Below are positions 53,163 through 63,279 of a stretch of DNA of 64,000 bases, piece after piece. The position numbers and the translations under genes are program-made. The notes below the pieces were generated by a model. The model searched no databases. It saw nothing but the letters and a program-made list of their open reading frames with translations, and was not told where the DNA came from. The DNA comes from Paludibacteraceae bacterium (GTDB lineage Bacteria > Bacteroidota > Bacteroidia > Bacteroidales > Paludibacteraceae): positions 27,777 to 91,776 of the forward strand of contig JAGCWA010000032.1 of the NCBI GenBank assembly GCA_017962085.1, written 5' to 3'. Within the stretch, counting starts at the first letter, position 1. Every line of letters starts with the position of its first letter.

Positions 53163-53188
53163 ATGTGAACATTAAAAACAACAGAGTT

Positions 53189-55783
53189 ATGAACTTTAAG
53201 AATTATACGATCAAAAGTCAGGAGGCGATACAAGAGGCTGTGAACTACGCCAACAAGCGTAACCAGCAGGTTATCGAGCCTGTCCACCTGCTGAAGGGTA
53301 TCCTGAAAGTGGGCGAGAACGTCACGAAGTTCGTATTCAACAAACTGAACGTAAACACCGAACAACTCAATGAGGTCGTCATCAAGATGATCTTGCGTCT
53401 ACCTAAGGTAACGGGGAGCAACGAAGACACCTACTTGAGCAACAGTGCGAACGCAGTGTTGAAGAAGGCGGAGGAGATGTCGAAGGAAGAGGGTGACCAG
53501 TTTGTCTCCCTGGAATATATCTTGCTTGCACTGATCGCGGTGGATAGTCCTGCGGCAGCCTTGCTGAAGGACGCGGGCTTGAACTACCAAGCCATGAAGG
53601 ATGCCATCGCCGAACTGAGACAAGGGAAGAAGGTGACGGACGAGTCTGCCGAGCAGACCTACGACGCCCTCAACAACTACGCGATCAACCTCAACGAGCG
53701 GGCGCAAGCCGGTAAGCTGGACCCTGTCATCGGAAGGGATGATGAGATCCGTAGGGTGCTACAAATCCTTAGCCGTAGGACAAAGAACAACCCTATCCTC
53801 ATCGGTGAGCCTGGTACGGGTAAGACCGCCATCGCGGAGGGTTTGGCGCAACGAATCATGCGTGGCGACGTGCCGGAGAACCTGAAGACCAAGAAGATAT
53901 ACTCCTTGGACATGGGTGCCGTCATCGCGGGCGCGAAGTACAAAGGCGAATTCGAGGAGCGACTCAAATCGGTCATCAACGAGGTGATCAAATCGGACGG
54001 AGAGATCATCCTCTTCATCGATGAGATCCACACCTTGGTAGGCGCAGGCAAGAGCGACGGCGCCATGGATGCGGCTAACATCCTGAAGCCGGCCCTCGCC
54101 AGAGGTGAGCTGAGAGCCATCGGCGCGACTACCCTCGACGAGTACCAGAAATATTTCGAGAAGGATAAAGCCTTGGAGCGTAGGTTCCAAATCGTCATGG
54201 TCAACGAGCCGGACGAGGCGACCACCATCTCCATCCTGCGTGGATTGAAGGAGCGTTACGAGAACCACCACAAGGTGCGTATCAAGGATAACGCTATCAT
54301 CGCGGCGACCCGTCTCTCCAACCGTTACATCACGGACCGTTTCTTGCCAGACAAGGCCATCGACCTGATCGATGAGGCGGCCGCTAAGCTAAGGCTGGAG
54401 ATAGACTCCGTACCGGAGGAGTTGGATAACAAGGCACGTGAGATCAAGCAATTGGAGATCGAGCGTGAGGCCATCAAGCGGGAAGACGACAAGACTAAAC
54501 TCAATAAGTTGGAGAAGGAGATCGCCAACCTGAAGGAGCAGATGCAGGACATCGGCGCCAAATGGACGGCTGAGAAAGAGCAGATCAACATCATCCAACA
54601 GAGCAAAATAGAGATCGAGCAACTGCGCTTCGAGGCTGAGAAGGCGGAGCGTGAAGGCAACTACGGACGTGTGGCGGAGATCCGCTACGGAAAGGTGAAA
54701 GAGGCGGAGAACCGTATCGCCGAGGCCCAGAAGAAGCTGGCCGACATCCAATGCGCCGATCCGCTCGTCAAGGAGGAGGTGGACGAGGAAGATATCGCCG
54801 AGGTAGTCTCCAAATGGACGGGCATCCCTGTCACCAAGATGATGCAGACCGAAAAGGATAAGTTGATGAACCTCGAGGAGGAACTCCACAAACGTATCGT
54901 CGGACAGGACGAGGCCATCAGAGCGGTCTCCGACGCCGTGAGACGAAGCAGGGCGGGTCTGCAAGACCCTAAGAAACCTATCGGCTCATTCATCTTCCTG
55001 GGCACGACAGGTGTGGGTAAGACCGAGCTGGCGAAGGCTTTGGCGGAACTGCTGTTCGACGACGAGAATATGATGACCCGTATAGACATGTCCGAGTACC
55101 AAGAGAAGATATCCTCCACCCGACTCATTGGTTCACCTCCGGGATACGTCGGCTACGAGGAGGGCGGACAACTGACCGAGGCCATCCGTCGTAAACCATA
55201 CTCGGTGGTCTTGTTCGATGAGATCGAGAAGGCGCACCCGGATGTCTTCAACACACTGCTTCAGGTGCTGGACGACGGACGATTGACCGACAACAAAGGC
55301 AGGGTCGTCAATTTCAAGAACACGATCATCATCATGACCTCCAACCTCGGTTCTTCCCTCATCGCGGAGAAGTTCGAGAACATAACGGACGAGAACCGTG
55401 AGAAGACACTGGCGGAGGCGAAAGAAGACGTTTTGGGTCTGCTGAAGGAGACCATCCGTCCTGAGTTCCTGAACCGTATCGACGAGATCATCATGTTCTC
55501 CCCTCTTTCGAAGGAAGACACAAAGGCGATTGTCGACATGCAGATCGCCAGTCTCCACAAGATGTTGAAGGAGAGCGATGTGGAGCTGAACGTGACGGAA
55601 GACGCGAGGGCATTGATCGCCCAAGAGGGTTACGACCCTCAGTTCGGCGCAAGGCCTATCAAGAGGACCATCCAAAGGTTGTTGCTGAATGAGCTCTCCA
55701 AAGCGCTCATCTCCCAATCGGTGAACCGTGACAAACCGATCGTGGTGGACAGGGACGGAGACCATCTGAAGTTCACCAACTAA
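53189..55783 (+). CDS. clpB: ATP-dependent chaperone/disaggregase ClpB
   Basis: An 864-residue ClpB. It starts [20 protein letters not shown]; a GTG at 53,165 would extend it but is not preferred. The Clp_N domain (1-145) is followed by AAA1 with [19 protein letters not shown] and [20 protein letters not shown], the ClpB-specific middle coiled coil (~405-530, [20 protein letters not shown]), and AAA2 with [40 protein letters not shown] and the sensor-2 [13 protein letters not shown]. It works with DnaK to dissolve aggregates. The length agrees with the family (E. coli 857). It is followed by a strong terminator and then the AT-rich island. Confidence 0.97.
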
Positions 55784-55849
55784 ACGGTGGGCAAAGCTTC
55801 TAACCGCAAGAGTTTATGATTCAATAAGCGATATGCTTACCCGATATGA

Positions 55850-55894
55850 GGGTGCAAGCATAGTTCATACAGAACGTGCCTGCACCCTTTTTTT
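55850..55894 (+). terminator. rho-independent terminator after clpB
   Basis: Long stem-loop with GGGTGCA (55,850-55,856) and TGCACCC (55,881-55,887), an inner GTTC/GAAC pairing and a seven-base T-run. It marks the left edge of the AT-rich island. Confidence 0.85.
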
Positions 55895-55970
55895 GAATAT
55901 AATCAATCAACACTTGAAATTCTCTCTCTTTAAAGAAAAAAGGCATAAACAGAAATATTAATAAAAAAAA

Positions 55971-58900
55971 ATGAAAGATATATTGCGTAATTTTTTAGAA
56001 ATCAACGATCAATCTTCTGGATTAATGTTATTGCCATTAACAACTGGTTCTGGCAAGACTCACCATGTCCTTGAATATATTGCCGATTTGCTTTTACGCA
56101 ACCGAGAACAGAAGGTGTTTTTCATTACAACTCAAAAGAAGAATCTTCCCGTTGATAAATTGCGAAGAATGTACAAAGGTGATGATTTTGACGAAAGAGT
56201 TTTAAGGATTCAGTCAGTAATGGATTGTATAAAAGAAAACCTGACTGACAATTTGGTTAAAGAGATTAAATTGGAACAACAAACTCTTGCTAGTTCCTCT
56301 AAACTAAATATGTTAGTTGCTGTTCGCAAGGAAATACTACGTATTGGTGATGAAAACATAGAAACTGGTCGTGTCGCAGAACGCGAATTCCGTAATGAGT
56401 TGTTATATTTTTTAACAAAAGAATGCAAGAAAGATGAACTACTAGAAAAAATAAAAAAAGATAAAGCGTGGCATTGGGTTGGCAAATTATATCCGATGGT
56501 TTACACATCAGAGCGGCAAGTATATTTTATGAGTATGGACAAATTCATGCTGCCATATAATACTCTTGTAGACCCCACAGAAAAACTTATCGATAGCAAG
56601 TGGTTTAAAGGTGCATATGTTTTCATCGACGAATTCGATGCAACAAAAGAAACTATTCTCAACAGAATCATCGGTGATAAAAACAACAAAATCAATCTGA
56701 TAAGTTTAGCGAAAAAAATCACACAAGGATTAAATTATACCGATTTTCCAACTATCTATACAGGGACACCATACAATACAAATACAATTGATAATAATTT
56801 GAAAAATTTCAATCAATTAAGCGAAGACTATTGTTTAAAATACGTGTTCAAGACATCAAATGAAATTAAATCTACAGATAGTTTTTTATTTCATGATAAT
56901 GGATATTGGGGACTAACTACAGAAAAGAATCTAATAGTGGAAACTGACCCCAAGAAAAAACAGAACATTATTAATGATAAATCAGAAGATAACAACAATA
57001 AAACATATACACTTTATGAACTTTTGTCTAAAATACAAAGTAAACTGACGTATTTCCAGAATGGAGTTTCATATATCGCCAAAGACTATATTAGCAAAAA
57101 AGGTGTGAACCTTAAAACCGCCGTTGATTCTTTTCTGAACTTATTTCTTGACAATCCATATAGCGACTACATTTCTACTCAGGTGATGTCGATTTTACGG
57201 GCAGAGAATGATAAGAAAAGTGAGATTTCTAAAATGGATAAATTCGATACATCATTCTATAAAAATGGATTTCGCTATACACGACTGGAGAATGACGAAT
57301 TTAGCAATGCGGAACAATCAGAAGTAACTTTATACTCCTATAATGAAACACCTGAATCTGTGATGGAGAAAATGGCTAAAGTTGCAAAGATTGTTGGTAT
57401 ATCGGCGACGGCCACACTTAAAACCGTTTTAGGAAACTACGATATTGATTATTTGCAACGCAAGTTGCTTGATAAATACTATGTCTTGACGGAAAGAGAA
57501 CAAAAGCAATTGAAAGATTTCCTTGACAAATCAAGGAAGGATTATCATAAAACTAATATCAATGTTAAAATCAATAAAATTTCAGAAAAAGAATATGCCG
57601 ATGATGCATGGTTGGACATTGTTCCAGAAACAGATGCACAAGAAATAACAGAAGCATTAAATAACAGTTATGGCACTGACAATTATAAAAAATATAGATT
57701 TTACAAAATATCGTGGGCATTCAAACAATTCTATTCGCACGATGATATTAAGTCTTTCTTGTGTTTTATGAATTTACACCCCAAAAAAGGAAATGATTTG
57801 GATAGTGAAATATTATCATTAATTTTTGATAGAATAACAGGAGAAAAAGGTGGAGCTAAGAATTTTGTAGAATATTTAAATAATGAAGGAGATGGTTATG
57901 ACAATAATCTAAAGAGAATAACAGATCGATTAAGCCAAGGAGAAAAATTATTTGTGATATCTGTTTACAAAACCTTAGGTACTGGACAGAACCCGCAATA
58001 TATAATCCCCAAAGATATCGAAGTGGAGAAAATAAATGACCTATACGAGGATAATAAGAAAGATTTTGATGCAATCTATTTGGACAAACCTACACATATA
58101 ATCAGCAATTTATATGATACTTCACAGTTGAAATGGAATGATAATGATTTCTTGAAGTTTGTTTTTGAAATGGAGTATTTGTGTCAGAACGGAGATATAA
58201 GTGAGACTCAAAAAAGAGAACTGATAAATATTGGCTCTAGAAAGTTGTGTGGCATACCATGCACAAGAAAAAAAGAAATGAACTTTGAAAGTATGCAACC
58301 ATACAAAGGATTAGCAACACAAGTGATAAATCAAGGTTGTGGGCGTATTTGTCGTACCAATAAGAAGAACAAGAACATATACATTTTTGCAGACAAAGAT
58401 ATTTCAAATGTAATTGATCCTTTGGTAAGAACGGCAATTCCGTTGAGTCCTGAATTTGAAAAACTACTTTATGAATTAGAGAAAAGTGGCATTCAGCCTT
58501 CCGCACCAACATTATATGAAGATAAGGCTAAAAAAATCGAAACAGACACATCACGAACAATTAGTAATTATTTAAGTTGGGAAGATAAGTGGACAGCTAA
58601 CAAAATAGATGATTGGAAACAAATGCGATCGTACGTATTAAAATTACCAGCTCCAAACGAGCAAGAATTCAAAACTTTTCCACTTTATGACAGGTATATT
58701 GAATTGCCAGAAGAACAATCTGCATATTGGTATGACCAGTCAGAGGACTACTGGAAGATTAATGCAATTAGTTTTAAAAAGAAATTATCTCAAGAAGTAT
58801 CCGAAGATGATTGCCAGTTGAAAACGCTAATGAAAATTCCAGGTATCAAAGAAATGTTTGTGAGGAAAGGCTATGCTACATCATGGAAACCAAGCAAATA

Positions 58901-59333
58901 TTTGATGTCACCATCTTTATATAGTCGAATATATAAGGGAGCATTGGGCGAAGTTGTAGGAAAACAAATCTTTAAAGACACAATAGGTGTTGAATTGGTT
59001 GACATAGAAGATAGTTCGGTCTATGAATTCTTTGATTATCAAGTACCAAGTAAAAACATTTATGTGGATTTTAAAAAATGGAAAGAAATTAATCTAGGCC
59101 TAGAGCAATCAGAAAAAATACGCTCAGAGATTTTTGCTAAAGCAAAAAAATGCGGAGCAGAAAAGGTGTTAATTGTTAATATTTATTCGACAACCGAACG
59201 CCAATGTAAACCACCATTACAAAGAGAAGAGTGTTCATTAATAGAAATACCACAACTCTATGTGGAAGATGGAAAACAGGTTAAGCTTTCTATTGATTCA
59301 ATAAATGTTATTAATAAGTACTTATGGAAATAA
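55971..59333 (+). CDS. SF2 helicase fused to a PD-(D/E)XK nuclease, DdmD-like
   Basis: A 1,120-residue protein. The N-terminal helicase has LMLLPLTTGSGKTHHVLEYI (Walker A, residues 24-30), AYVFIDEFDATKE (Walker B DEFD, 220-223), VGISATATLKT (motif III-like SATA, 478-481), FVISVYKTLGTGQNPQYI (motif IV/V region, ~662-678) and INQGCGRICRT (motif VI Q-x-x-G-R-x-x-R, 788-795). The last ~140 residues form a restriction-endonuclease-like domain: GALGEVVG (Glu994), EFFDYQV (Asp1022) and YVDFKKWK (Asp1033-x-Lys1035), fitting E...D...(D/E)xK. Helicase-nuclease order and size match DdmD of Vibrio cholerae (about 1,190 residues), which degrades plasmids with DdmE. The nuclease assignment is by motif. Its stop overlaps the next gene by 10 bp. 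Codons are AT-rich, unlike the neighbours. Confidence 0.82.
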   Translation: MKDILRNFLEINDQSSGLMLLPLTTGSGKTHHVLEYIADLLLRNREQKVFFITTQKKNLPVDKLRRMYKGDDFDERVLRIQSVMDCIKENLTDNLVKEIKLEQQTLASSSKLNMLVAVRKEILRIGDENIETGRVAEREFRNELLYFLTKECKKDELLEKIKKDKAWHWVGKLYPMVYTSERQVYFMSMDKFMLPYNTLVDPTEKLIDSKWFKGAYVFIDEFDATKETILNRIIGDKNNKINLISLAKKITQGLNYTDFPTIYTGTPYNTNTIDNNLKNFNQLSEDYCLKYVFKTSNEIKSTDSFLFHDNGYWGLTTEKNLIVETDPKKKQNIINDKSEDNNNKTYTLYELLSKIQSKLTYFQNGVSYIAKDYISKKGVNLKTAVDSFLNLFLDNPYSDYISTQVMSILRAENDKKSEISKMDKFDTSFYKNGFRYTRLENDEFSNAEQSEVTLYSYNETPESVMEKMAKVAKIVGISATATLKTVLGNYDIDYLQRKLLDKYYVLTEREQKQLKDFLDKSRKDYHKTNINVKINKISEKEYADDAWLDIVPETDAQEITEALNNSYGTDNYKKYRFYKISWAFKQFYSHDDIKSFLCFMNLHPKKGNDLDSEILSLIFDRITGEKGGAKNFVEYLNNEGDGYDNNLKRITDRLSQGEKLFVISVYKTLGTGQNPQYIIPKDIEVEKINDLYEDNKKDFDAIYLDKPTHIISNLYDTSQLKWNDNDFLKFVFEMEYLCQNGDISETQKRELINIGSRKLCGIPCTRKKEMNFESMQPYKGLATQVINQGCGRICRTNKKNKNIYIFADKDISNVIDPLVRTAIPLSPEFEKLLYELEKSGIQPSAPTLYEDKAKKIETDTSRTISNYLSWEDKWTANKIDDWKQMRSYVLKLPAPNEQEFKTFPLYDRYIELPEEQSAYWYDQSEDYWKINAISFKKKLSQEVSEDDCQLKTLMKIPGIKEMFVRKGYATSWKPSKYLMSPSLYSRIYKGALGEVVGKQIFKDTIGVELVDIEDSSVYEFFDYQVPSKNIYVDFKKWKEINLGLEQSEKIRSEIFAKAKKCGAEKVLIVNIYSTTERQCKPPLQREECSLIEIPQLYVEDGKQVKLSIDSINVINKYLWK

Positions 59334-61132
59334 AGACTAATCGAATTGTATACGAATTAGATGCTGTACAAATGGCCTCGATATATGATGTTTATTCGTT
59401 GAAAACGACAGATGATCGGTTTCCATCAGGAGCGAAGATGATTGACGAATTGTCGGCCAACAAATGCATTATATCAACAGTGTATGTTTCGATAAAAGAA
59501 TATTTGCTAATGCTGAAGAAAGGTATGGAAAGCAAGCATGATTTATTGGAAAATATTCACAAACTGAAAGATGGTGACAAGATCACCCTAACTGATTACT
59601 TGTCGGGGAAAACCAATGATTATTACTTGTTGCAACTTCTTTTGAATGCAATTGGCACACGTCAGACTAAGTTTGAATCGTATAATAATGTCACAGGACA
59701 TTTGTATTGCTTCCATCCCAATTGGATAAAACGAATCAAATCGGAAATCATCAGTATTCCTACCATGGACATTCGTTTGACATCGGGTATATTAACTTGG
59801 AATATTTGCACGTTCAACACATTGAAATATAAAAACGCAATGGATTTTGGCAAGCGGAAAATATCGGAGTTCCCGCGATACACAATTTCTGCCAATTATT
59901 CATTACGTCGCAAACTCAAAGACGACGAAAAGCAGGATGAATTTATTCAGCGTAAGATATTCGATAAAAAGACAAGCAAAACGTTTCTCGACATTTCTAA
60001 TGAAAATGCTTTTGACGAAAGTAAGATGGGAATCATTGCAAAAGTGATTTCGCAATTCAACGAGAAATATAATGGACTTGCTAAATTAGACTTTGAACCA
60101 CAAGAAATAGAGTCATCCATAGAATATTCGAGTAATAGAGAAAAAAATTTGCTAAGCAAAAGACTCACTGATTTGCTATCAAAACAAAAAGTTGTTTTAG
60201 TCGATTTAGTAGAGAATGAGAAGTCGGCAATTCAATGCGAACAAATAACATCTGTATTCAAGTCAAATTTTGGAATATCCGTAAGAAAAACCAAAAGATT
60301 GTCGAAGGGTGCATATAATTTACGGTTGATACACAACGATGAATATTATGGCAAAAACATTGCTGACCCACACGATGAAGACCTGTCAAAATATACCGTT
60401 CAGCACATAACGACGGACAATTTTAATGACAAAGGTTCTGACACGTATCTTCGAGCAGTCGCTTTCAATGTTGCTGAAGAATTAATCATTAAAGATGATT
60501 TAAGAAATAAAACAATCTCTATTGTCAATTGGTCTGAATTTCAATTCGATAACAATTTGATATTTGGCATAGAGCACGATATACAAACTGAAAATGGAGG
60601 AAAAAACAGACAATTCTATTTTATGACCATAAAACCCAACGGTCAATTTGAGATACGACAACAAGAGAATGATTTGTTCTCATCTGATGAATACCATAAA
60701 TATTTGAAAATCTTCACATCCTGTGAGAAAGAGACTATAAAAGGCATTGTTAAATATGGAGCCGATATCAATGTTATCCATGAGACTGGATTACATACCG
60801 TTCCAGACATATTGGGGTTAAAAGAAGAATTGGCAAAAGGCAATAACAAACTAAAAAATAAAGAAGCACGCAACAACTATTTGTCAGCATTACTTGACGT
60901 GAAAACATTTAAAAAAGACAATCAATTGCACTATTTTGTTGGAGAGATGGGGGTTGGAATAAATAGCACTTTATCAGGCGTCCCTATTCGTCGAATAGAA
61001 TCGTATGAGGGATCATCGCTATTCTTCGACAAACTTTTACCTCTTATGGGTGTGACATTTGTTCGTAACGGGCAATTAACTGTTGTTCCTTTCCCATTTA
61101 AATATTTGAGGGAATATATCAAGTATTACTAG
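59324..61132 (+). CDS. inactive PIWI/Argonaute-like protein, DdmE-like
   Basis: A 602-residue protein starting inside the helicase gene (ATG at 59,324). Residues ~1-270 contain beta-rich segments (RLTSGILTWNICTFNTLKYK) that could be N/PAZ-like. From ~288 a Rossmann-like MID pattern appears (KVVLVDLVENEKSAIQCEQI, then FKSNFGISVRKTKRLSKG). Then come TVQHITTDNF, AVAFNVAEELIIKDDLRNK and an RNase-H-like PIWI region: NLIFGIEHDIQ (where Ago has GxDxS), INVIHETGLHTVPD (where Ago has IHRDG) and the closing LTVVPFPFKYLREYI. The catalytic Asp positions appear to be Glu/His and Thr, so slicing is unlikely. It would act as a guide-binding partner for the helicase-nuclease, as DdmE does. The fold call is by eye; a pPIWI-RE protein is the main alternative. 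Confidence 0.6.
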   Translation: MEIKTNRIVYELDAVQMASIYDVYSLKTTDDRFPSGAKMIDELSANKCIISTVYVSIKEYLLMLKKGMESKHDLLENIHKLKDGDKITLTDYLSGKTNDYYLLQLLLNAIGTRQTKFESYNNVTGHLYCFHPNWIKRIKSEIISIPTMDIRLTSGILTWNICTFNTLKYKNAMDFGKRKISEFPRYTISANYSLRRKLKDDEKQDEFIQRKIFDKKTSKTFLDISNENAFDESKMGIIAKVISQFNEKYNGLAKLDFEPQEIESSIEYSSNREKNLLSKRLTDLLSKQKVVLVDLVENEKSAIQCEQITSVFKSNFGISVRKTKRLSKGAYNLRLIHNDEYYGKNIADPHDEDLSKYTVQHITTDNFNDKGSDTYLRAVAFNVAEELIIKDDLRNKTISIVNWSEFQFDNNLIFGIEHDIQTENGGKNRQFYFMTIKPNGQFEIRQQENDLFSSDEYHKYLKIFTSCEKETIKGIVKYGADINVIHETGLHTVPDILGLKEELAKGNNKLKNKEARNNYLSALLDVKTFKKDNQLHYFVGEMGVGINSTLSGVPIRRIESYEGSSLFFDKLLPLMGVTFVRNGQLTVVPFPFKYLREYIKYY

Positions 61133-61172
61133 TGCCCCGTTAAAATCGGGACGAGTTAATTAAGGACCAACC

Positions 61173-61218
61173 GCACTTGGACCCTCATACGCAATGTATG
61201 AATCCAAGTACGTTTTTT
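61173..61218 (+). terminator. rho-independent terminator after the DdmE-like gene
   Basis: ACTTGGA (61,175-61,181) pairs with TCCAAGT (61,203-61,209), with an inner TCATAC/GTATGA pairing, followed by a T6 run. It marks the right edge of the island. Confidence 0.85.
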
Positions 61219-61225
61219 ATATCTA

Positions 61226-61257
61226 GGGCTCTCTGACCGCATAGTAGGTCAGAACCC
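61226..61257 (-). repeat. hairpin spanning the stop codon of the tandem-AAA gene
   Basis: TCTGACC (61,232-61,238) pairs with GGTCAGA (61,247-61,253), with an outer GGG/CCC stem. It includes the stop codon (61,249-61,251) of the minus-strand AAA+ gene and lacks a T-run. It may stabilise or process the 3-prime end. Confidence 0.6.
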
Positions 61258-63279
61258 TACCCTATTCCTGCCGGTCGTCAGTTTCTCGCTGAATTCCTTC
61301 TCCGATTTGGCGGCGAAGAAATCCTCCTGGCATAGAACAACCTCCTTCTGCCCATTGAGCTGCGCCCGCATCGCCGCCTTGGACCATGTGCGCTCATAAA
61401 GATTACGCACGAACCTGGCGTTCGAGAACTCCTCCGAACTGATGTAGCTTTGCGGCAACTCGTCGAAGTACTGCTCCACGGCAGGCTTCAGCTCCTTCTG
61501 GCAGGCGAAATGTTTCTCCGCCATCAGCATGAATATTTGGGCAAGTTGCTCCTTCGTGTAGGAAGGAAACTCGACCAGGAAAGGCATACGGCTCCGAAGC
61601 CCGGTGTTTCCCTGCATCAGCTTCTCCATCTCCGCCTTATACCCGGCCATGATGACCACAAGGTTGTCACGATGGTTCTCCATCTCCGAGATGAGCGTGG
61701 TGAGAGCCTCCCTACCATAATCGTTTTCAGACCCCACGCCCCCTCTGTAGAGGTCATAGGCCTCGTCGATGAAGAGGACCGAGCCATAGGCGTCACGACA
61801 GATCGCCGCGGTCTTAGGGGCAGTCTGACCGATATATTCCCCACAGAAATCACGGGCGCCATATTCGAAGAAATAACCATTGCTAAGCAGTTTATGCTCG
61901 GCGAAGACTCGTCCGACGATACGCGCCACCGTCGTCTTACCCGTACCCGGCGCACCTACGAAACGCATGTGCATGCACGGACGTTCCAGCTTGTCGTTCT
62001 GAATAGAGACCTCCACCTGCGCCACGATCTCACGGATACGCTCGGTGATCTTCTCCATGCCTATCATTTCGGACAACTCGTCGAAGGCATCTTTCCCCTG
62101 GACACCGTATGTGACCGAAAGGGGCTTAATCTCCTCACGACGTATGGTGTCGTCGGAAGCGCCACGGTTCCGGGCATCCGCCTGATGTTTGAGCAATACC
62201 GTCTCGTCGAAGACCTTCTTGACGGTGCGTAGGCCGTAGAAGCGTCCGTCACTCTTCTCCTCCCTGATCCGGGCGAAGAAAACCTCCCAGGCGTCCTCCT
62301 CCATCTCAAGGCGTAGCGGGTCGAGCATACGCTCCGCATACTGCCGGATCTCCTTGTCCGAGAAAGGCGGGATGGTGAATGTCTTGATGAAAAGGATATC
62401 GGAAAGCGAATCCTCTATTTTCTTGAGCTCATGAGGCTCTATGTAAGGGACACGGAAGACGAAATTGAAGTTGCCGGAGACGTGCGAAATCTCCAGAAGC
62501 AGATCTTTCAGCTCACGCTGCTTGGATTTGACCATGAACTCGCTGATGTCCAGACAGACAAGCTTGTCATAATTCTCCTTGTCGTAAAGGATGTTCAACA
62601 AGTCTTTGACATTGATCTTCCGTCCCTGCGTCTCATCGGAGAGCACGAACTCGAAATAGAACTTCTTGGTGAAAACGCCCAACTCCACCTCGAAAAGGGT
62701 GAGCAGGTTGATGACCCGCGTCAGGCCGCATCCGTCATTGACCGAGAAGAGATAATTCTGCGCCTTGAAACTGTCCAGCGAGTCCCTTTTGTGCATATCG
62801 GCGACGACAGGCACCGCCTCGTTGACGAACTGCTTGAAGGAGTCCCAGCCGATGAGGTTGTTGATGTTTTTGATGATATCGTCCAGCTCCTCCTTGTTTT
62901 TGAAGACGCTATAGTCCACCTCGTTCTCCTCCTCCTGCGGTTGTTCCCCTTCGTTCTTCAGGGAAACATGGACAGAAGATTTCTCCCCGAGTTTATAGTT
63001 TATCCGCTCCTCATCTCCGCTCTCGTGAATCATCGCGATGTGGGGGCAGACCTGCTCCATTTTCTTCACGATGGCGTCAGCGGTCTCCTGCAAGTTCTTA
63101 TCCGTCTGCACCTTGCAACAGATCAGTTGAGGTCCGCTCAGCACCGTCGTCACGCAGCTTTCTCCGAAACAAGACTCTATGAGGCAAGGAATCAATGAAC
63201 CATTCAATTCGGGATCATGGTCAAACAACCCATCCTTGACTTCTCCGATATCAAATATTACTTCATATGTGCTATTCAT
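61249..63279 (-). CDS. tandem AAA+ ATPase of the CbbX/SpoVK type with degenerate first AAA domain
   Basis: A 676-residue protein. The C-terminal AAA+ domain (~400-660) is a full CbbX/SpoVK-type module: MRFVGAPGTGKTTVARIVGR (Walker A), SVLFIDEAYDLYRGG (Walker B), LVVIMAGYKAEMEKLMQGN (sensor 1), GLRSRMPFLVEFPSY (arginine finger region) and EEFSNARFVRNLYER (sensor 2). The N-terminal half (~125-370) resembles a second AAA domain without catalytic motifs: LFSVNDGCGLTRVINLL stands at the P-loop and KLVCLDISEFM at Walker B. An N-terminal ~110 residues are unique and acidic. CbbX-type ATPases remodel protein complexes; the target is unknown. It is preceded on the same strand by a 40-residue ORF and a hypothetical gene, probably one operon. 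Confidence 0.85.
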   Translation of the reverse strand: MNSTYEVIFDIGEVKDGLFDHDPELNGSLIPCLIESCFGESCVTTVLSGPQLICCKVQTDKNLQETADAIVKKMEQVCPHIAMIHESGDEERINYKLGEKSSVHVSLKNEGEQPQEEENEVDYSVFKNKEELDDIIKNINNLIGWDSFKQFVNEAVPVVADMHKRDSLDSFKAQNYLFSVNDGCGLTRVINLLTLFEVELGVFTKKFYFEFVLSDETQGRKINVKDLLNILYDKENYDKLVCLDISEFMVKSKQRELKDLLLEISHVSGNFNFVFRVPYIEPHELKKIEDSLSDILFIKTFTIPPFSDKEIRQYAERMLDPLRLEMEEDAWEVFFARIREEKSDGRFYGLRTVKKVFDETVLLKHQADARNRGASDDTIRREEIKPLSVTYGVQGKDAFDELSEMIGMEKITERIREIVAQVEVSIQNDKLERPCMHMRFVGAPGTGKTTVARIVGRVFAEHKLLSNGYFFEYGARDFCGEYIGQTAPKTAAICRDAYGSVLFIDEAYDLYRGGVGSENDYGREALTTLISEMENHRDNLVVIMAGYKAEMEKLMQGNTGLRSRMPFLVEFPSYTKEQLAQIFMLMAEKHFACQKELKPAVEQYFDELPQSYISSEEFSNARFVRNLYERTWSKAAMRAQLNGQKEVVLCQEDFFAAKSEKEFSEKLTTGRNRVGF

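Follow-up and report, generated by a model that had tools for sequence, protein, structure and literature searches.

The window analysed here, 64,000 nucleotides of contig JAGCWA010000032.1 from a Paludibacteraceae bacterium (GCA_017962085.1), holds two overlapping genes, and these raise the question of whether a helicase-nuclease and its putative Argonaute-like partner from what appears to be a rumen member of the Bacteroidota constitute a DdmDE system, and how such a system compares with those whose structures have been solved. We consider it very likely that the two genes encode a DdmDE system and lie on a cassette that was exchanged recently; DdmE would use a DNA guide to recruit DdmD, with plasmid loss as the outcome. 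The two genes are as follows:

55971..59333, plus strand: ddmD, a superfamily 2 (SF2) helicase with a C-terminal PD-(D/E)XK nuclease, 1120 aa, assigned from PADLOC and solved-chain matches
59324..61132, plus strand: ddmE, a predicted Argonaute-like guide protein of 602 aa, short in form and presumably inactive, assigned from phmmer and profile matches

Both are intact, co-directional open reading frames (ORFs) with a 10 bp overlap, exactly as the initial annotation had placed them. The SF2 helicase motifs that it had listed for gene 1 are present in the translation, namely a Walker A motif TTGSGKT with K29, DEFD at 220-223, SATA within GISATA (S478-A479-T480) and QGCGRICR at 788-795. This motif set is not a product of chance, because gene 1 matches the PADLOC DdmD model (E 7.9e-46) and the chains of solved structures, where it retrieves six distinct sequences at E ~1e-44; one of these is labelled DdmD and five are labelled 'Helicase/UvrB N-terminal domain-containing protein', and some of the structure entries also contain DdmE. 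A profile of 36 DdmD sequences matches solved chains at E 1.3e-162 and 3.2e-126, and Pfam and NCBIfam return for gene 1 weak helicase or irrelevant matches, all under their cut-offs. The proposed C-terminal E/D/DxK nuclease site is likewise confirmed, in that E994, D1022, D1033 and K1035 are invariant in 36/36 aligned sequences (that of the window included), as are the helicase residues S478, A479, Q788, G791, R792 and R795, with K29 and D220-D223 kept in at least 90%; this alignment excludes cut or interrupted copies (L046, L056, L057, L059) and same-locus copies (L015, L016, L024, L043, L054).

For gene 2, nothing rises above cut-off in Pfam or is found at E<=1 in NCBIfam or PADLOC. A phmmer search with the single protein does recover the solved DdmE chains 9iw3 (E 3.3e-9) and 8u0j (E 1.7e-4), and a profile of 27 DdmE sequences, including that of the window, improves the E-values for solved DdmE chains to 2e-60 and 9.4e-41 without matching any different solved family at E<=0.1. 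These single-sequence and profile matches to solved chains establish, at the level of sequence comparison, that gene 1 is a homologue of DdmD and gene 2 a homologue of DdmE, and the PIWI fold predicted for gene 2 follows from its homology to solved DdmE. Across the 27 DdmE sequences, which include two near-duplicate pairs (L041/L045 and L051/L052), N6, N122, D348, Q360, G440, T586, P589, K593 and E597 are invariant, and N332, Y342, T363, E386 and K390, among others, are kept in at least 90%, as is T488, which is immediately preceded by variable residues. The aligned Vibrio DdmE chain has the same residues at N332, Y342, D348, Q360, K390, T586, P589, K593 and E597. From residue 395 onwards the sole acidic or histidine columns kept in at least 70% of the sequences are D525 (19/27) and E597 (27/27), the latter in the C-terminal tail; a catalytic acidic set is thus not conserved, which agrees with an inactive PIWI domain. 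Ratios of nonsynonymous to synonymous substitution rates (dN/dS), each calculated against two close relatives, are 0.08-0.11 for DdmD and 0.05-0.08 for DdmE, at dS values of 0.86-2.9 that are partly saturated, and both genes look to be under selection for protein sequence.

What sets this DdmE apart is one shortened stretch:

60803..60898, plus strand: shortened stretch of ddmE, residues 494-525, with 32 residues as against the 98-157 of long-form DdmE

At these columns DdmE falls into two discrete classes, with 27-32 residues in 12 of the 27 sequences, 98-157 in the other 15 and no intermediates. The short proteins (577-634 aa) thus lack at least 66 residues of what is presumably the PIWI half, and they come from five Bacteroidota (the window's own genome included), six Bacillota and one Alphaproteobacteria metagenome-assembled genome (MAG), with a gut or rumen source named in many, not all, of the record titles. 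The solved DdmE chains belong to the long form, because their alignment runs through the segment; the segment itself is not known to be a defining feature of DdmDE. In a DdmE tree built without the segment columns, nine of the 12 short sequences form one supported clade (99/97) and the other three lie elsewhere; parsimony places two changes of segment state on this tree, and a topology constrained to unite all 12 is not rejected (p of the approximately unbiased test, p-AU, 0.143). One and two origins of the short form therefore cannot be told apart and, because the tree is rooted at its midpoint only, neither can gain and loss of the segment.

A very divergent Bacteroidales group has DdmE of 661-662 aa (E 2.7e-28 to 6.4e-34) paired with DdmD of 1256-1263 aa:

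L128, 4287-10051: divergent Bacteroidales DdmDE
L129, 3519-9290: divergent Bacteroidales DdmDE
L130, 5947-11723: divergent Bacteroidales DdmDE

In genome G662 the DdmE match breaks off at profile position 505 and resumes at 574 across 15 bases, and the DdmE proteins of G602 and G806 have ~115 residues where the profile holds ~180 positions; the divergent group seems, on these alignments, to be without the segment as well. Two additional long-form DdmE proteins occur in G938 and G892. A marked change in DdmD accompanying short DdmE was sought and rejected: the DdmD partners of short DdmE differ by one three-column gap near residue 627 and by four residues, in a comparison (and a DdmD tree) in which the split DdmE genes of L031 and L049 were labelled long by default. 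The near-unchanged length of DdmD argues, weakly, against the segment serving as a large DdmD-docking part. Short forms recur across Bacteroidota, Bacillota and one Alphaproteobacteria MAG with the length of the partner DdmD nearly unchanged, and from this we infer that the segment may be dispensable for the guided mechanism. The short DdmE proteins offer a natural deletion with which the function of this part of the PIWI half can be probed.

By analogy with the described systems, the pair most likely eliminates plasmids. According to PMC12409362, DdmE uses bound DNA guides to target plasmid DNA and brings in DdmD. The autoinhibited DdmD dimer opens and loads on the non-target strand, with translocation by the helicase and cutting by the nuclease as the next steps. 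The roles of DdmD and DdmE are stated in reverse in PMC12904381. The MID domain of the DdmE described here would load a short DNA guide, guide binding being predicted from the shared columns, and the guided protein would pair with plasmid DNA without cutting it. It would then recruit DdmD, which would leave its autoinhibited dimer, load on the displaced strand, translocate and cut with its nuclease domain, whereupon the plasmid would be lost.

The wider occurrence of the pair supports the suggestion in the initial annotation of a Bacteroidota version of DdmDE, since, beyond the matches of both proteins to solved members, DdmE adjoins DdmD in 29 of 37 loci among the matches listed (five of the 29 are split or partial in one gene). 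A scan of genome contigs with six DdmD sequences yielded at least 37 loci, and those listed come from Bacteroidota, Bacillota, Cyanobacteria, two methanogens, an Alphaproteobacteria MAG and Spirochaetota; seven of the 37 have no DdmE within the retrieved flank of up to 6 kb, and one ends within DdmD. DdmE itself is rare and sporadic, being found in 3/120 related genomes (that of the window included), in 2/395 genomes of the phylum (that of the window and the doubtful G319) and, among 393 genomes of the order, in six by single-protein search and 10 by profile (that of the window included, one doubtful). G319 (E 3e-4 over 117 residues) and G690 (17 profile positions matched) were not accepted as DdmE. 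No relative was found in viral contigs by the pattern-based scans P0001, A1 or A3, nor any DdmD relative in phage records by tblastn, and we accordingly rejected spread by phages. Carriage by plasmids was also set aside: in plasmid records DdmD gave three matches (E<=1e-10) and DdmE two (E<=1e-3), and none of them exceeds 60% identity. Two large plasmids, from Nostoc and Lactobacillus (NZ_CP117770.1 and NZ_CP072985.1), nevertheless each have a distant DdmD match near a distant DdmE match, an instance of an anti-plasmid system borne by plasmids. A recurrent third gene was rejected as well: among 169 neighbouring ORFs of at least 150 aa at 39 loci, four duplicate loci having been removed beforehand, no group occurs in more than three loci, and both three-locus groups resemble, by eye, a two-gene insertion element. 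Pairs of this kind, likewise recognized by eye, split ddmE in L031 (9443-14091) and ddmD in L057 (5947-11887), and both have a relative in a pair next to ddmDE in L019.

Within the genus, the position of the cassette can be defined from its surroundings:

53165..55783, plus strand: conserved flanking gene, presumably clpB, with a near full-length match in 16/16 same-genus genomes
61249..63279, minus strand: conserved flanking gene for a SpoVK/CbbX/EccA-like AAA ATPase (TIGR02881, E 7.3e-73; its 244.8 bits fall below the curated cut-off, 422.95)
55849..55903, plus strand: clpB-side cassette end, a hairpin (55849-55888) and T run, with homology to other occupants stopping at 55898-55903
61133..61249, plus strand: ATPase-side cassette end, an imperfect hairpin (61169-61215) then a T run, with homology resuming at 61249, the ATPase gene end

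The ddmDE genes have a GC content of 31-35% (cassette 33%) against 49-57% in the adjoining flanks, dropping to 39% past 63 kb. The clpB and ATPase genes lie close together on one contig in five of the 16 same-genus genomes, the window's own (G000) included, and the slot between them (window 55784-61248) holds ddmDE in G000 and G007, 2.3 kb with Fic-like and WG-repeat-like genes (named by eye) in G010 and G015, and 5.9 kb of other genes in G001; the interval is a variable cargo slot within the genus. Between G000 and G007, ddmDE differs at 4 of 5162 bases, as against 41/2619 in clpB, 61/2031 in the ATPase gene and 129/2958 in the gene before clpB (1.6-4.4%), and because the flanking genes differ far more than the pair, we read the ddmDE cassette as recently exchanged. 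No ORF beyond the pair, and no integrase, was found aboard the cassette, and a repeat at its 3′ end was set aside as single-copy in its own genome. Such whole-cassette exchange at one slot within a genus illustrates the mobility of a defence without a carried integrase. A second DdmE, 37% identical and with its own DdmD, lies ~87 kb off on the same contig (C32) of G007, the two loci (L015 and L016) being different DdmDE systems, and G010 has its own DdmD copy among the matches listed.

Seven intact DdmD genes without DdmE form two groups (L034, L037, L038 and L053; L040, L044 and L050), which have values of 100 and 99 in the Shimodaira-Hasegawa-like approximate likelihood ratio test on a quick tree without bootstrap, in which L050 is a long branch. 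DdmE was found in 0/7 of their genomes at E<=0.001 (controls 2/2), six of the seven being MAGs that may be incomplete. Their neighbours vary, comprising type II restriction genes, an HsdM-like gene (by eye), Fic and GIY-YIG genes and AAA_13. The class of one DdmD-only member was covered by 291 genomes, of which 22 have some match and just three have full-length DdmD, namely that member and two adjoined by long DdmE, so that DdmD with DdmE is the common state. It is possible, and we offer it tentatively, that DdmD is a helicase-nuclease with several targeting modes, working with a trimmed DdmE in largely gut bacteria and, after loss of DdmE in two Bacillota lineages, being directed there in some other way, possibly by neighbouring restriction-modification genes. 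If this is true, the PIWI-half segment would be unneeded for guided recruitment.

Several observations weigh against the interpretation of the pair as a plasmid-eliminating DdmDE system. The pair has low similarity to the solved proteins, and searched as a single sequence DdmE gives modest E-values (3.3e-9 and 1.7e-4); gene 2 is unmatched by PADLOC's DdmE model; guide binding is predicted from shared columns and not from a pocket; and if the segment is required for DdmD recruitment, the short forms would be forced to recruit it otherwise. The PADLOC result has a bearing on detection generally: the DdmD model finds 35/36 DdmD sequences at E<=1e-5, and the DdmE model of PADLOC 2.0.0 finds 6/27 DdmE sequences at E<=0.01 and leaves 21/27 unmatched, that of the window included (of the short forms, it matches 2/12, ours not among them). 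Rules requiring both models would therefore miss this locus and, with 21 of the 27 missed, DdmDE in gut- and rumen-type bacteria is probably under-counted.

A system that is DdmDE by descent might have phage or conjugative-element DNA as its main natural target, with plasmid loss as a secondary effect. The restriction genes adjoining some DdmD loci, chiefly the DdmD-only ones, and the other cargo borne by the clpB-ATPase slot in relatives hint weakly at this, but plasmids are what DdmDE and ApsAB act on in the systems described so far (PMC12409362 and PMC11096173), and we regard a different main target as unlikely. Absence of the segment from 12 of the 27 sequences, together with the seven DdmD in genomes lacking a DdmE match, could instead point to short DdmE as a degenerate, non-targeting derivative beside a DdmD that acts without guides; the low dN/dS of short DdmE (two comparisons) and the retention of the shared columns in the short forms make such decay very unlikely. 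The initial annotation had also entertained an intermediate between DdmDE and pPIWI-RE modules, which combine an inactive PIWI protein, a helicase and a restriction endonuclease-fold nuclease and so present a similar list of parts. That idea finds no support in sequence comparison: in Pfam, which we take to include pPIWI-RE family models, 0/27 DdmE sequences match the pPIWI-RE family at E<=0.1, nor does gene 1 match it, and both members of the pair are directly homologous to DdmD and DdmE, leaving the intermediate with almost no probability. A guided, plasmid-directed DdmDE thus accounts best for the pair.

Among known systems, the Vibrio cholerae DdmDE (DdmE chains 8u0j, 8u3k and 9ezy; DdmD from 8u3k, 9bgk, 9ezy and others) resembles the pair in combining a helicase-nuclease with an Argonaute-like protein, inactive there and presumably so here, with homology that spans both proteins and includes the DdmE C-terminal tail, but its DdmE chains have 677-690 residues and align through the segment absent here. 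The second solved DdmDE (9iw3, 9ix4 and 9ixm), presumably from Lactobacillus casei, is the top profile match for both proteins (2e-60 and 1.3e-162), yet its DdmE chain, of 715 residues, is also of the long form. ApsAB of Escherichia coli is similarly an anti-plasmid pair of a helicase-nuclease and an Argonaute-like protein, and its authors found ApsB and DdmE to share no sequence similarity (PMC11096173); a member of that system would be expected to have an ApsB homologue with a Y-K-Q-K MID motif. No short DdmE or Bacteroidota DdmDE was seen in titles and abstract openings among the matches listed, a scope outside which fall passing mentions (e.g., PMC12259885 and PMC13064858) and most subscription papers. 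The locus extends the known DdmDE systems by a short-DdmE architecture, an advance that is useful rather than revolutionary, and carries them into rumen and gut anaerobes in a form unlike that of the solved systems.

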